From positions 1 to 64,000 of the forward strand of contig NZ_SMKX01000026.1 in NCBI RefSeq assembly GCF_004349055.1: DNA of 64,000 bases. The letters run 5' to 3'. Shown piece by piece: positions 44,666-49,873 of the stretch (position 1 is its first letter; each line of letters begins with the position of its first letter). Made by a program: the position numbers and the translations under genes. This stretch comes from Kribbella antibiotica. GTDB lineage: Bacteria > Actinomycetota > Actinomycetes > Propionibacteriales > Kribbellaceae. The notes under the pieces were generated by a model. That model had not been told where the DNA came from and made no database searches. It was given only the letters and a program-made list of their open reading frames with translations.

Positions 44666-45487
44666 ATGCAGCCTGACGATCTGCCTCCGGCGAAGTTCAA
44701 CACCTCCATTCCGACAGCGGCGCGCATGTACGACTACTATCTCGGCGGCAAGGACAACTTCGCCGCCGACCGGGCGGCCGTCGAAGAACTGGACAAAGTC
44801 GTCCCCAGCACCCGCGCACTTGCCATCAACAACCGGCGATTCATGCAGCGCGCGGTGCGGGTCCTGGCAGAAGATCACGGCATCAGGCAATTCGTGGACC
44901 ACGGATCCGGTCTGCCCACCCAGAACAACGTGCACCAGGTCGCAAAACAGGTCACTGCGGACCCACGTGTCGTCTACATCGACATCGACCCGCTGGTGAG
45001 CGTGCACGGCCGGGCCTTGCTGGTCGAAGACGAGCGCACCACAACGGTCATCGAGGCCGACATGCGCGACACCAACACCATCTTTGCCCACCCCGACACC
45101 CAGCGCCTGATCGACTTCTCCCAGCCTGTTGGCGTGCTGTTCAACTCGGTCTTCCACTGCATCCCGGACAGCGAAACCAACGGTCCGCCGGCCGTGGTCC
45201 GCCAGGTCACCGAGCGGCTGGTTCCGGGCAGTTACCTGGTGATGTGCCAGCTGGTCAGCGAGGACCCCGAGATCCGCGACTTCGTCACCAACTTCATGGA
45301 CCAGGCAACGCACGGCAACTGGGGCCGGGTCCGGCAGGAGAAGGACGTGGCCGAGTGGTTCGAGGGAATGGACATCCTCGAGCCGGGGCTCGTAGAGGTT
45401 TCCACCTGGCGGCCCGACGACGAAGCCGCTCCCAAGCAACAGACCTCGGAGTGGATCGAGTTCGGCGGAGTTGCTCGCCTCCGCTGA
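44666..45487 (+). CDS. SAM-dependent methyltransferase, DUF574 family
   Basis: 273 residues. TSIPTAARMYDYYLGGKDNF at residues 12-32, NRRFMQRAVRVLAEDHGIRQF, DHGSGLPTQNNVHQVA (SAM loop) and YIDIDPLV are the landmarks of the actinobacterial DUF574/Methyltransf_19 family. Many copies occur in such genomes and the substrate is unknown. ATG 44666 follows GGGAAGAC. Confidence 0.92.
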   Translation: MQPDDLPPAKFNTSIPTAARMYDYYLGGKDNFAADRAAVEELDKVVPSTRALAINNRRFMQRAVRVLAEDHGIRQFVDHGSGLPTQNNVHQVAKQVTADPRVVYIDIDPLVSVHGRALLVEDERTTTVIEADMRDTNTIFAHPDTQRLIDFSQPVGVLFNSVFHCIPDSETNGPPAVVRQVTERLVPGSYLVMCQLVSEDPEIRDFVTNFMDQATHGNWGRVRQEKDVAEWFEGMDILEPGLVEVSTWRPDDEAAPKQQTSEWIEFGGVARLR

Positions 45488-45601
45488 CTCGGTTTCGCGT
45501 GCTGGCGCGTGAGGACCTCACCATGGCCGCGCAGTCTCGCCAACTGCTCAGCCCGGTGATTGCCCGGAACGGGTCGGGTACCGGCCTGGCATGATTTCGT
45601 G

Positions 45602-45952
45602 ATGAGGCCTTGGCTCGCGGTGCCCGTCGTGCTGGCGTTGGGTCTTGGTGTTCGGGCATTCGCGAGTGGTGACTTCGCCAAGTACGCGGGGGTCGCGCTC
45701 TACACTACGCTGATCTATGCGCTGGTGTCGTTCTGGTTGCGCCCACTCTGGGCAGCTGTGGTCGCTACGGGTTTCAGCTGGGCAGTGGAGTTCTTCCAGC
45801 TCACCGGGATCCCCGCGGAGCTCTCCGCGCGCAGCGGCCTCGCCCATCTGGTGCTGGGGTCGACTTTCAATGCACCCGACCTCTTCTGGTACGTCGTTGG
45901 CGCCGGTCTCGGCGCGTTGATCGTCCGGCGGCGGACCGCCACCACTGTCTAA
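45602..45952 (+). CDS. DUF2809 membrane protein
   Basis: 116 residues with four membrane helices. The AVEFFQLTGIPAELSARSGL segment followed by HLVLGSTFNAPDLFWYVVG matches the DUF2809 family, of unknown function. CATGAT six bases before the ATG could be a weak -10, and no ribosome site is seen. Confidence 0.85.
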   Translation: MRPWLAVPVVLALGLGVRAFASGDFAKYAGVALYTTLIYALVSFWLRPLWAAVVATGFSWAVEFFQLTGIPAELSARSGLAHLVLGSTFNAPDLFWYVVGAGLGALIVRRRTATTV

Positions 45953-46090: not shown

Positions 46091-47902
46091 CTAGGTTTTT
46101 GTGTAGCCGGCTGCCTGGAGCTCGAAGAGACGGGCGTAGGTGCCGTTGTGGGTGATCAGGCTTTCGTGGCTGCCGAGCTCGGCGATCCGGCCGTCGACCA
46201 GGACCGCGATGCGATCGGCGGAGCGCACGGCGCCCAGCCGGTGTGAGATGAGCACACTGGTCCGGCCGCTGCGATGAGCGGCGAGGCTGGTGTGGATCTC
46301 GTGCTCCGCTTCGGCATCGAGCCCGGACGTCGGCTCGTCCAGGATCAGCAGATCGCGGCGATCCCGGAGGAAGGCTCGAGCCAGCGCGACCCGTTGCCAT
46401 TGACCGCCCGATAGCAGTACGCCGGTGGCCGGATCGTCCTTGTCTGCTTGGTCGAAGAACATCCGCGACAGCATCGTGTCGTACCCGTGCGGTAGCTCAG
46501 CGAGCACCTCGCCGATCCCGGCGCGACCGGCCGCAGCCTCCACGCGCGGGCGACTGTCCGCGCGCAGTTCGTCGGTGCCGTCGATCTCGCCGAGCGCGAT
46601 GTTCTCGGCGGCGCTGAGCTCGTAACACATGAAGTCCTGGAAGACCGCTCCGATCCGGCGGCGCAACTCGGTGACGTCGAGCTCCCGCAGATCGACGCCG
46701 TCCCAGAGGATCGCGCCACGCGTCGGGTCGTAGAAGCGGCAGAGCAGCTTGACCATCGTGCTCTTACCAGCGCCGTTGTGCCCGACCAATGCAGTCGAGC
46801 GGCCGAATGGAATGAACAGATCAACGCCCTGCAAGGCCCAGGAGTGCTCGTCGCTGTACCGGAACCAGACGTCCCGGAACTCGATACCGTGCCGCAGTTC
46901 CGGCGCTGCGATCGGCTCGTCCGCGACCATCAGCCCGGCGGGTTCCTCCGTCACTGCCTGGTAGTGCTCGAACATCAGCAGCGCATTGTGCGCCATCCCG
47001 AGCCGCCCGATCAGTGCCGACAACGCCAGTTGTACGCCGCCCACCGCCGCGACGAACACCGCAACGTCGCCCAGGCTGATCCGCCCGGCACCGGCGGCCA
47101 TGATCGCCCAGATCAGACCCGCCCCGGCGATGACAGCACCCAAGGCGGCGAGCAGGCCCTGGATCAGCAGGTCGCGCCGGTCGATCCGGCGCTTGGCTGC
47201 GTTCGCCGTACGGAGCTCGCTGAGCATCCGCCGCCGCAACAGCCGCCCCAGACCGAGTAGGCGAATCTCCTTGGCCGCTTCGAGCCCGGTCATCAGCTCC
47301 GAGTAGAAGTACTGCCGACGCTCGGTCGGACTCAATCCGGTCATCAGCTCGGCCCGCCGACGGCTGAGTTGCAGCTCGGCGTAGAGCCCAGGAACCGAAG
47401 CGACCAGTACGACGATCGCCATCCAGGGACTGATCGCGATCAGCGTGAGGGTGAAGCCGGCCAGCGTCAGAATCGACTGCAGGCCGCCGACCAATGCATC
47501 GAGAATGGTCACCGGCCCGGACTGGCTGTGCTGCTCGGCAAGCCGCATCCGGTCGCGGAAGACCGGGTCCTCGAGATTCGCCAGACCAGTCATCCGATCC
47601 GTGGCGCCGTACAGGCGATCGCGCGACAGCACGGTGACCCGGCGGGATACCTCCGCAGACAAGTAGCGGATGAGTTCGCCCAGCACAGCGAGTGCGAGGC
47701 CGGCCGCAGCCAGTCCGATCGCGAGCAGCACAAGGCCTCCGCCGCCGGTGGCCAGGCGGTCCAGCACCAACTTTGTCAGCCAGGCCGCCGCGACCGGCAC
47801 GAGACCGCTGCCGATACTCGCGAGCACGTATCCGGCGAACGCCGCAGGAGCCGCTCGCCAGGCCAGTGCGAGTGAGGCGACTGCGCCCGAGCGCATGCTC
47901 AC
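46091..47902 (-). CDS. ABC exporter, fused membrane and ATPase domains
   Basis: 603 residues: N-terminal ABC-type-1 membrane domain with five or six helices (to about 330) and a C-terminal nucleotide-binding domain with Walker A VGHNGAGKST, signature LLSGGQWQRVALARA, Walker B LLILDEPTSGLD and switch His in VLISHRLG. It is built like bacteriocin/lipid exporters but lacks an N-terminal C39 peptidase domain, so leader removal would need another enzyme, such as the S26 peptidase at 49388. Start GTG 47902 overlaps the thioredoxin stop (GTGA). Confidence 0.93.
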   Translation of the reverse strand: MSMRSGAVASLALAWRAAPAAFAGYVLASIGSGLVPVAAAWLTKLVLDRLATGGGGLVLLAIGLAAAGLALAVLGELIRYLSAEVSRRVTVLSRDRLYGATDRMTGLANLEDPVFRDRMRLAEQHSQSGPVTILDALVGGLQSILTLAGFTLTLIAISPWMAIVVLVASVPGLYAELQLSRRRAELMTGLSPTERRQYFYSELMTGLEAAKEIRLLGLGRLLRRRMLSELRTANAAKRRIDRRDLLIQGLLAALGAVIAGAGLIWAIMAAGAGRISLGDVAVFVAAVGGVQLALSALIGRLGMAHNALLMFEHYQAVTEEPAGLMVADEPIAAPELRHGIEFRDVWFRYSDEHSWALQGVDLFIPFGRSTALVGHNGAGKSTMVKLLCRFYDPTRGAILWDGVDLRELDVTELRRRIGAVFQDFMCYELSAAENIALGEIDGTDELRADSRPRVEAAAGRAGIGEVLAELPHGYDTMLSRMFFDQADKDDPATGVLLSGGQWQRVALARAFLRDRRDLLILDEPTSGLDAEAEHEIHTSLAAHRSGRTSVLISHRLGAVRSADRIAVLVDGRIAELGSHESLITHNGTYARLFELQAAGYTKT

Positions 47903-48423
47903 GATGTCAGCTGGGCGGCCTGGTAACCGGTCGACGCCACTCGCAGGTTGTCGTCGAGGATCACGAGCGTCGGCATCGCGCTCACTCCGACCGCGCGCGC
48001 CACCGGACCGTCCTCGGCCTCGATCACGACCTGGGCGACCTTGGACAACTTCTCGGTCATCTCGGTCAAGGCCGGCTCGTAGCCCGCTGCGATCGCGATG
48101 ACGCGTTCGCGGCCGAGCGGTTCGGCGTACGTCAGGAAGCCCGGCAGGCTCTCGGCGCAGGTCGAGCAGGTGGTGGAGAAGAATCCGAGCAGCATGCCCC
48201 CGGCGGGTGCGACCTCCAGGCCGTCGACCGTGGTCGCGGTGAAGGACGCGATTGGCGTGCCGAGCGGAACCCCGACGACCTCGCGGCTGGGGCTCTGGTT
48301 GTTGACGAGCTTGGTGAGGTGGTCGGCATGAACTCGTAGCCGTTTGACCAGACCCAGACTGATCACCAGGTTGAGCAGTGCCAGTGCCGCGACCAGCACG
48401 ACAGCGACCGTCAGGATGACCAA
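47899..48423 (-). CDS. Membrane-anchored TlpA-like thioredoxin
   Basis: 174 residues: one N-terminal anchor (about 3-24) then a thioredoxin fold with active-site FFSTTCSTC (Cys86, Cys89) and cis-proline segment AMPTLVILDD. This is the TlpA/MauD arrangement, an extracytoplasmic disulfide oxidant or reductant. It overlaps the ABC gene by 4 bases and lies 14 bases after the MauE-like gene, so all three are co-expressed with the Cys-rich peptide. Confidence 0.9.
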   Translation of the reverse strand: MVILTVAVVLVAALALLNLVISLGLVKRLRVHADHLTKLVNNQSPSREVVGVPLGTPIASFTATTVDGLEVAPAGGMLLGFFSTTCSTCAESLPGFLTYAEPLGRERVIAIAAGYEPALTEMTEKLSKVAQVVIEAEDGPVARAVGVSAMPTLVILDDNLRVASTGYQAAQLTS

Positions 48424-48437
48424 CGTCTTCTCCTTCG

Positions 48438-48986
48438 CTAACCGATGGCTTGGGAACCGAACAGCTCGACGAGATCGTCGAAGCGCGTGACGAGCAAGCC
48501 GCCGACCAGGCCGGCGACAGCGGCGATAGCGAATCCTGCGGGCTCGACCGACTCAGGCCTCGTTGCTCCCGCGACGAGGCCTGCGACAGCGGCCGCCAGC
48601 AACAGAACATTTCGTACGACGTGGGCGCGGCCCAGCGGGGTGGTCGCGGCGCCGAAGCACTTGCAGGGCTTGCGAATCCCGCGGCGCAGGGTCACCACGA
48701 TGGCGGCGGTGAAGGACAGCAGGAGAAGCACGGCCAGGAGGAAACCGGCCGACGCGACAAACCTCAAGGAAGCGGAGAAGGCTCCGACCAGTAGTGCCAC
48801 GGTCAGCGTCACCTCGGCCACGACAACGCCCGCGGCAGCCGGCACTCGCAGACCGGTCGGCAGAATCTCCAACGGACCAGCCGATCCGGCGAAGTCCCGG
48901 AACGCCTTGGAGCCCGTCTTGCTCACGGCGGATTGCCCGAAGACGAAGGCCAGGCAGAGACAGCAACTGAGTAAGAGGTAGACCAT
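48438..48986 (-). CDS. MauE/DoxX-family redox membrane protein
   Basis: 182 residues with four or five membrane helices. Cysteines cluster at the first helix (SCCLC, 8-11) and in a loop RKPCKCFGA (108, 110), the KCFG motif of MauE-type proteins. MauE and MauD are needed for disulfide formation in the methylamine dehydrogenase small subunit; here the TlpA partner is next door and the peptide gene upstream is the likely client (inference). Confidence 0.88.
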   Translation of the reverse strand: MVYLLLSCCLCLAFVFGQSAVSKTGSKAFRDFAGSAGPLEILPTGLRVPAAAGVVVAEVTLTVALLVGAFSASLRFVASAGFLLAVLLLLSFTAAIVVTLRRGIRKPCKCFGAATTPLGRAHVVRNVLLLAAAVAGLVAGATRPESVEPAGFAIAAVAGLVGGLLVTRFDDLVELFGSQAIG

Positions 48987-49047
48987 CGCCGTCCCTTGGA
49001 GTTCAGAGCAGTGCCGGTGCGTCCACCGGCACTACGATCAGCTGGAA

Positions 49048-49239
49048 CTAACAGGCGCCGACGACGTAACAGGCCCCGCAGGCGCTTCCTACGCAACTCT
49101 TGTGCTTCCGGACGTAGCCGGGCGAGTCCCAGAAACAGCCGCAGTCCCGGGTCGTGTCCTGCACGCCGGCCTCCGCCGTCACCTCCGGAACCAGTCGGCT
49201 GATGATTCGATCGCCCAGGCGTTGGAATGCATTCCGCAT
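49048..49239 (-). CDS. Cysteine-rich peptide precursor, candidate exported peptide
   Basis: 63 residues. Residues 1-25 (FQRLGDRIISRLVPEVTAEA) form an amphipathic, cysteine-free leader ending AEAG, which suits cleavage near residue 24-25. The C-terminal 38 residues hold all six cysteines (33, 35, 49, 54, 57, 63), the last at the very C-terminus. AGAGG lies five bases before ATG 49239, a strong ribosome site. It heads the operon with MauE, TlpA and the ABC exporter, and the S26 peptidase is divergent. The expected product is a disulfide-rich secreted peptide, perhaps antimicrobial or signalling. No class of characterised RiPP is matched with confidence. Confidence 0.8.
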   Translation of the reverse strand: MRNAFQRLGDRIISRLVPEVTAEAGVQDTTRDCGCFWDSPGYVRKHKSCVGSACGACYVVGAC

Positions 49240-49272
49240 GAATCCTCTTTTCGGAGACGGGTAATTCGCTGG

Positions 49273-49278
49273 ATATTA
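49273..49278 (-). promoter_or_regulatory. Possible -10 element for the Cys-rich peptide operon
   Basis: On the minus strand TAATAT lies 34 bases before ATG 49239, in the most AT-rich part of the divergent region. No strong -35 is visible. Confidence 0.4.
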
Positions 49279-49387
49279 CTTACGACGGTCCGCTCAGGCG
49301 AGAGGTAATTGCCATCGATCCTGGCAGGAACCGGCCATGGCAGTGGTTTGACTGGATCCGGCCCCGCGAGCGTTTATGGTGTCGGCC

Positions 49388-49873
49388 ATGGTCCCGGCAG
49401 TCGTCGTCACGCTCGTCCTCGCGACCGCAGGACTGGTCGCCGCGAGTAGGCGGCTCGCCCTGGTGCGCGTGGCCGGGCAGAGCATGACGCCGACGCTGGC
49501 CGACGGTGATCGGCTGCTCGCGTGGCGCAGGTCCGGACCACTCCGGGTCGGCGACATCGTCGTACTGGAAGCGCCTTATCCGGTTGGGGTTGTGCCGCAT
49601 GCGGCAGCAGGTAAGCTTCACCCACCGCCTTGGCAAACGGGGCCGGCATCACCAGGTGAGCTGGACCGTCGCTGGATCGTCAAGCGGGTCGTCGCGCTGC
49701 CCGGGGACGTCGTTCCGCCCGAGGGCGCCGGATGCCTCACGGCCGGCACCGTGGTGCCGCCAGGTTGTCTGCTGGTCGTCGGTGACAACCCTGATCAAAG
49801 CTACGACTCACGGCACGTCGGATTCGTCCCCGCCGAGCGAGTGCTCGGTCTCGTCATTCGCCGGCTGAAATGA
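49388..49873 (+). CDS. S26-family signal peptidase
   Basis: 161 residues: one N-terminal membrane helix (2-20), catalytic serine in GQSMTPTL (Ser32) and general-base lysine in WIVKRVVALPGD (Lys99), then VVGDNPDQSYDSRHVG. This is a type I signal peptidase/LepB-like fold, short for a housekeeping enzyme. TATGGT lies seven bases before ATG 49388, implying a leaderless start there; an ATG at 49376 is inside the -10. Divergent from the Cys-rich peptide operon, so it is the likely leader peptidase (inference). Confidence 0.87.
   Translation: MVPAVVVTLVLATAGLVAASRRLALVRVAGQSMTPTLADGDRLLAWRRSGPLRVGDIVVLEAPYPVGVVPHAAAGKLHPPPWQTGPASPGELDRRWIVKRVVALPGDVVPPEGAGCLTAGTVVPPGCLLVVGDNPDQSYDSRHVGFVPAERVLGLVIRRLK

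Follow-up and report, generated by a model that had tools for sequence, protein, structure and literature searches.

The window analysed here is the first 64,000 nucleotides of contig NZ_SMKX01000026.1 of Kribbella antibiotica, a soil actinobacterium (assembly GCF_004349055.1, forward strand). Between positions 46,091 and 49,873 it contains five genes: a small cysteine-rich precursor peptide, a MauE/DoxX-type membrane protein, a TlpA-like thioredoxin, an ATP-binding cassette (ABC) exporter and a peptidase of the S26 family (Table 1). A previous reading of the DNA without database searches (the sequence-only reading) had proposed this cassette, and all five genes lie where it had placed them. 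On the strand of the precursor gene MauE comes next, after a gap of 61 bases, and 14 bases further on the TlpA-like gene, which overlaps the exporter gene by 4 bases. The S26 gene is divergent. It is very likely that together they form a self-contained cassette, predicted to produce and export a small peptide, to trim it and to link its cysteines by disulfides.

Table 1. Features of the cassette in the window.
Feature	Position	Strand	Basis or remark
Precursor peptide, 63 residues; leader MRNAFQRLGDRIISRLVPEVTAEA (1-24) and six-cysteine core GVQDTTRDCGCFWDSPGYVRKHKSCVGSACGACYVVGAC (25-63)	49048..49239	-	Translation, ribosome-binding site, conservation in four species, purifying selection
Leader-coding part of the precursor gene	49168..49239	-	No Sec-type hydrophobic core; P at -7 and A-E-A at -3 to -1 of the predicted S26 cut
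MauE/DoxX-type membrane protein, CKCFG motif	48438..48986	-	PF07291, E 5.9e-21
TlpA-like membrane-anchored thioredoxin, CSTC motif, TTG start	47899..48423	-	Weak thioredoxin-superfamily scores
ABC exporter, half-transporter, no C39 peptidase domain, GTG start at 47902	46091..47902	-	
S26 peptidase (signal peptidase I type), N-terminal membrane anchor	49376..49873	+	PF10502, E 8.1e-24

The precursor behaves like a real gene. Its translation agrees with the earlier description: 63 residues with cysteines at positions 33, 35, 49, 54, 57 and 63 and none in the leader. A ribosome-binding site (AAGAGG) lies immediately 5' of the open reading frame; a scan around the gene for promoters and terminators found none. 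Three other species of the genus, each with the complete five-gene cassette, have a version of the peptide that is 67-94% identical (94% in Kribbella albertanoniae). Pooled over close pairs, the proportion of nonsynonymous differences (pN) is 0.12 and that of synonymous differences (pS) is 0.34. Hence the reading frame is translated, and purifying selection acts on it. None of the eight precursors tested (that of the window and seven others) matches a Pfam or NCBIfam model.

The cassette is not confined to these species. A scan of contigs with the single peptide reached K. albertanoniae only, and the wider reach came through profiles of the exporter and of MauE. (A peptide profile alone was also tried as an order-wide search and rejected: its matches were mostly chance.) In total 75 loci were gathered, 20 from the genus including the window, 49 from a sample of the class and 6 from named plasmids. 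The 20 genus loci, recovered with the MauE profile, are spread over 11 of 38 genomes and have about eight types of core. The exporter profile was run over 395 genomes of the class and its scores are bimodal: 50 matches in 29 genomes exceed 660 bits, followed by a gap down to 440. Both MauE and the TlpA-like gene occur in all 49 new class loci (the latter truncated in locus L122), S26 occurs in 44 and a cysteine-rich precursor in 47. These gene counts come from profiles; a cruder count, made by picking open reading frames, is not used. Seven exporters further under the gap (L136-L142) lack such a gene set, and in a sample of the phylum no loci were found beyond the class. The sequence-only reading had made its proposal depend on whether the peptide and its cysteines are kept beside homologous MauE/TlpA/ABC sets. 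They are: 73 of the 75 loci have a cysteine-rich precursor, always with an even number of core cysteines.

Just below the gap, at 440 bits, is the exporter of L135 (4664-9402). Alongside MauE and TlpA this locus encodes a small precursor that ends in ICDPDPSDDCWIVCNPNYCY. It has no S26, and its translated stretch yields no Pfam match.

The gene set stays together while the position of the precursor varies: it can come first, between TlpA and exporter, between exporter and S26, or after S26. Pairwise distances among the four machinery proteins co-vary (Mantel r 0.74-0.86). The plasmid-borne cassettes come from Streptomyces clavuligerus (pSCL4), S. atratus, S. nigrescens, a Streptomyces sp., Embleya and Nonomuraea. 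Where annotations are given, they read hypothetical protein, MauE/DoxX, hypothetical protein, ABC transporter and S26 family signal peptidase. On pSCL4 (L147, NZ_CP016560.1 49505-65220; operon BB341_RS28005 to RS27985) two tandem precursors are labelled hypothetical (WP_003953191.1 and WP_009999284.1), and the assignment of MauE to methylamine metabolism is likely a misannotation. In the window, the cassette adjoins a PF04672 S-adenosyl methyltransferase (44666-45487) and a DUF2809 protein (45560-45952), neither of which shows any sign of belonging to it.

How the precursor leaves the cell is suggested by its leader. The family has a gene-encoded precursor with a conserved leader, as is the case for ribosomally synthesized and post-translationally modified peptides (RiPPs). 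In 76 of 82 precursors the leader ends in P-x3-[A/V]-x-A, and in 60 of these 76 it is 24 residues long. Its hydrophobicity is low, with a Kyte-Doolittle maximum over 10 residues of 1.01 in the window and 1.08 on average, versus 2.66 for the OmpA signal; the leader shared by the 82 precursors has no Sec-type hydrophobic region. Because such a region is missing, we infer that the precursor with its leader of about 24 residues would cross the membrane through the dedicated ABC exporter. The window exporter lacks a C39 domain by profile scan, as the sequence-only reading had said along with the 4-base overlap, and so does not qualify as a peptidase-containing ABC transporter. The 839-residue reading frame called mechanically exceeds the real gene, since homologues begin at 47902.

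The end of the leader is predicted to be a cut site of the signal-peptidase type, and the membrane-anchored S26 protein, judged by motif, anchor and genetic linkage, would cut after its A-x-A. The predicted cut falls after AEA at residue 24. This leaves 39 residues (about 4.08 kDa), one more than the 38 of the sequence-only reading, which had let the leader run to AEAG. The window enzyme is a clear S26 member, with 84.9 bits on PF10502, 74.3 on TIGR02227 (cut-off 47) and the motifs GQSMTP (with the serine) and VKR (with the lysine). The catalytic pair had been numbered Ser32 and Lys99, which fits a start at ATG 49388; from ATG 49376 they become Ser36 and Lys103. Among 63 S26 relatives the serine motif, a hydrophobic N-terminus and the KR lysine are each present in 63 (the lysine in 48 by pattern and in 15 by eye from the sequences).

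The enzyme had been called dedicated from its divergent position alone, and the comparison strengthens that guess. S26 is present in 18 of the 19 other loci of the genus, and in genome G030 its gene overlaps the stop of the ABC gene on the same strand. The exception, L016, is a second copy in genome G031, one of the three species above, which has S26 in its other cassettes. Two further S26 genes lie elsewhere in the window genome. Precursors of the loci without S26 (L091 and L132-L134), L016 excepted, lack the full cut motif (Fisher P 4e-5). As the loci are related, this association between loss of S26 and loss of the motif is only suggestive. A looser A-x-A test, which accepted V-S-A in L132 and L133, gave P 0.003 and was replaced by the stricter motif. 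L132-L134 are three related loci whose precursors have 8 cysteines and no P-x3-A-x-A motif.

Alternatively, S26 could remove the leader inside the cell, in the manner of SodX with nickel superoxide dismutase; what the exporter then moves would be the finished core. The window enzyme scores 37 bits on the model of the nickel superoxide dismutase maturation protease, under its cut-off of 63, and the absence of a Sec-type core in the leader would fit as well. However, the hydrophobic segment precedes the serine motif in 63 of 63 S26 proteins, as in signal peptidase I with its outward catalytic domain, and the cut motif is the A-x-A of signal peptidases. We therefore consider cleavage inside the cell quite improbable.

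The cores differ greatly from one another. Their median length is 41 residues and cysteine makes up 17% of them. Grouped at 35% identity outside the cysteines they fall into 51 sequence groups, and they have 63 different cysteine spacings. (Clustering at 30% with a lax identity measure merged all cores and was not used.) Since dozens of unlike cores go with a single type of leader and machinery, the machinery would be generic and the core the variable, functional part. What the cores share is an even number of cysteines: 3 have four, 43 have six, 34 have eight and 2 have ten, without an odd case among 82. Peptides were picked by cysteine richness, never by parity. All 51 groups are even, which by chance has a probability of 4e-16, or 1e-6 with the laxest grouping (20 groups). 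Such parity points strongly to cores whose cysteines are all paired in disulfides. A structure model predicts confident beta structure for the window core (predicted local distance difference test, pLDDT, about 90). Foldseek finds no significant fold match for either of two core models, and no solved structure matches the window peptide or the MauE profile by sequence.

Could the cysteines bind metal instead? The peptide would then be a metallothionein or metallophore whose thiols MauE and TlpA keep reduced, and the high cysteine content would agree with this. Metal binding does not need an even count, though, let alone one kept across 63 spacings, and reduced thiols are ill-suited to export from the cell. 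This makes a metal-binding product extremely improbable.

If the cysteines are paired, the redox genes of the cassette are candidates for the task. The window MauE, with the KCFG noted earlier, scores 75.5 bits on PF07291 (cut-off 27), and CxCFG is kept in 68 of 69 relatives. The TlpA-like protein does carry the CSTC reported before, and CxxC is kept in 68 of 71 relatives, but its best Pfam score is 21.0 against a cut-off of 26.6, below what the thioredoxin and redoxin profiles ask for. The label TlpA-like is based on its CxxC, its membrane anchor and its MauE partner, and despite the low score the protein may work like a thioredoxin. In the mechanism we propose, this thioredoxin, its redox state maintained by MauE, would pair the six cysteines of the window core into three disulfides. 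The sequence-only reading had suggested that maturation may be purely oxidative plus proteolytic. The general picture fits, with MauE and TlpA as putative makers of the bonds.

A further, undetected enzyme might add thioether or other bonds, so that the product would be a modified RiPP and not merely an oxidised peptide. One homologous set, at L109, does have an MvdD-type ATP-grasp gene and a different type of precursor, and similar redox pairs are used by a labyrinthopeptin-like cluster in the window genome and by lasso clusters elsewhere. Yet the surroundings of the loci show no recurrent modification enzyme: outside the cassette, the neighbours that come back are regulators. Even parity, too, requires no extra chemistry. 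Hence additional chemistry of this kind seems very improbable for the family.

Two other loci deserve a description of their own. L018 (G000:C346, 2626-9906), in the same genome as the window, encodes a LanKC synthetase, a 41-residue precursor ending SNLSWWECCSTGSFSNCC, two ABC half-transporters, MauE and a TlpA-like protein. Its precursor resembles labyrinthopeptin A2, and the locus is a second, independent case of a MauE/TlpA pair beside a peptide that likely carries a disulfide. L109 (9300-13811) has an exporter of the same family as the window cassette, with MauE and TlpA. Next to them are the MvdD-type ATP-grasp gene, a BTAD-like regulator and a graspetide-like precursor that ends in CYAGSDTCRDDVCF, so the locus is possibly a hybrid of a graspetide and a disulfide-peptide cassette.

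Several known systems resemble the cassette. MauE and MauD of methylamine dehydrogenase maturation share with it the PF07291 family and a thioredoxin partner, but the conserved set has no methylamine dehydrogenase gene and its client would be a small exported peptide. Sublancin and other glycocins have a double-glycine leader cut by the C39 domain of the exporter, are glycosylated, and use redox proteins different from those of the cassette. As proposed here, their clusters dedicate thiol-disulfide oxidoreductases to an exported peptide (PMC9266682). Class I lasso clusters (sviceucin, MS-271, humidimycin) likewise have a DoxX protein, SviE, and a CxxC thioredoxin, SviF, beside a disulfide-bearing exported peptide (PMC9266682, PMC7168211). 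Unlike them, the cassette has no lasso cyclase and no RiPP recognition element (RRE)/B protease, and has S26 and a single ABC half-transporter.

The lasso clusters also weigh against part of our mechanism. Deleting sviF, mslE or mslF lowered the yield or changed export, and the disulfides still formed (PMC9266682). Hence MauE and TlpA may aid export or folding and not make the bonds.

The sequence-only reading gave no hint that the family is large, that its cores are hypervariable or that candidate RiPPs with MauE were already on record. decRiPPter flagged three Streptomyces families with MauE and a precursor of at least 8 cysteines as candidate RiPPs (PMC7794033). As in the cassette, MauE (in one family also MauD) lies beside a cysteine-rich precursor and was proposed to be RiPP-modifying (PMC7794033). 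The window has MauE but only 6 core cysteines, and 8 or 10 are found in 36 of the 82 precursors. Likened by description and not by sequence, the decRiPPter families probably belong to the present family. In the main text of that study there is no mention of a leader motif, an S26 cut site, an exporter family, cysteine parity or occurrence outside Streptomyces (PMC7794033). In the open full-text literature, which includes few subscription papers, we found nothing earlier that describes the leader, its tie to S26 or how widely the family occurs. Disulfide-bonded exported peptides are thus known as a kind, while for the leader, the peptidase link and the diversity no earlier description was found.

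What would such peptides be for? We lean, by a small measure of confidence, towards an antagonist, a bacteriocin or defensin-like toxin directed against competing microbes. This is suggested by cores that are hypervariable and occur in tandem copies, by a patchy spread that includes plasmids, and by Streptomyces antibiotic regulatory proteins (SARPs) encoded nearby; the family looks like a set of overlooked, bacteriocin-like peptides. Tandem, non-identical precursors occur in L086, L115 and L147, and one genome can hold several dissimilar cores. BTAD/SARP regulators adjoin at least 10 of 22 cassettes in eight genomes when seen directly, and 14 by BLAST grouping; 1.2 are expected.

Other observations speak against such a role. 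No immunity gene was recognised, and in the part of the window examined around the cassette (39-56 kb) there is no SARP regulator. Among orthologues the core evolves no faster than the leader, so that positive selection on the core is unsupported. Laterosporulins (PDB 6lwz and 6lwy), small disulfide-rich beta peptides, are the top two alignment rows for the window core, with Z 2.2 and 2.0 (Foldseek E 6.7); the match is too weak for a relationship, did not recur for a second core type and comes with no sequence similarity found. Product, disulfides and activity are moreover predicted from genes.

The same cassette, with its mechanism unchanged, could instead export a signal or developmental peptide aimed at a receptor of the same species. 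Actinobacteria use exported peptides during development, and both the regulators adjoining many cassettes and the lack of a recognised immunity gene would suit a signal. Hypervariable cores, tandem non-identical copies, several cores per genome and presence in only 11 of the 38 Kribbella species fit an arms race better. A signalling role is thus unlikely, and antagonism is the role that we prefer.

At present these genes are easily overlooked: the annotation of pSCL4 lists not only its precursors but also its thioredoxin as hypothetical and assigns MauE to methylamine metabolism. With the leader motif, the genomes of actinobacteria can be mined in a simple way for peptides rich in disulfides, and the genes probably required for heterologous production are those of the cassette. 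The job of MauE/TlpA pairs outside methylamine metabolism, and S26 as leader peptidase for an ABC exporter, can now be tested. It is quite possible, if not quite probable, that in actinobacteria the fixed leader and the four-protein line of ABC exporter, S26, MauE and TlpA form a general chassis from which a combinatorial library of disulfide-rich toxins is made. This would be a bacterial counterpart to conotoxin diversification, in which cleavage of the signal-peptidase type is uncoupled from Sec export.

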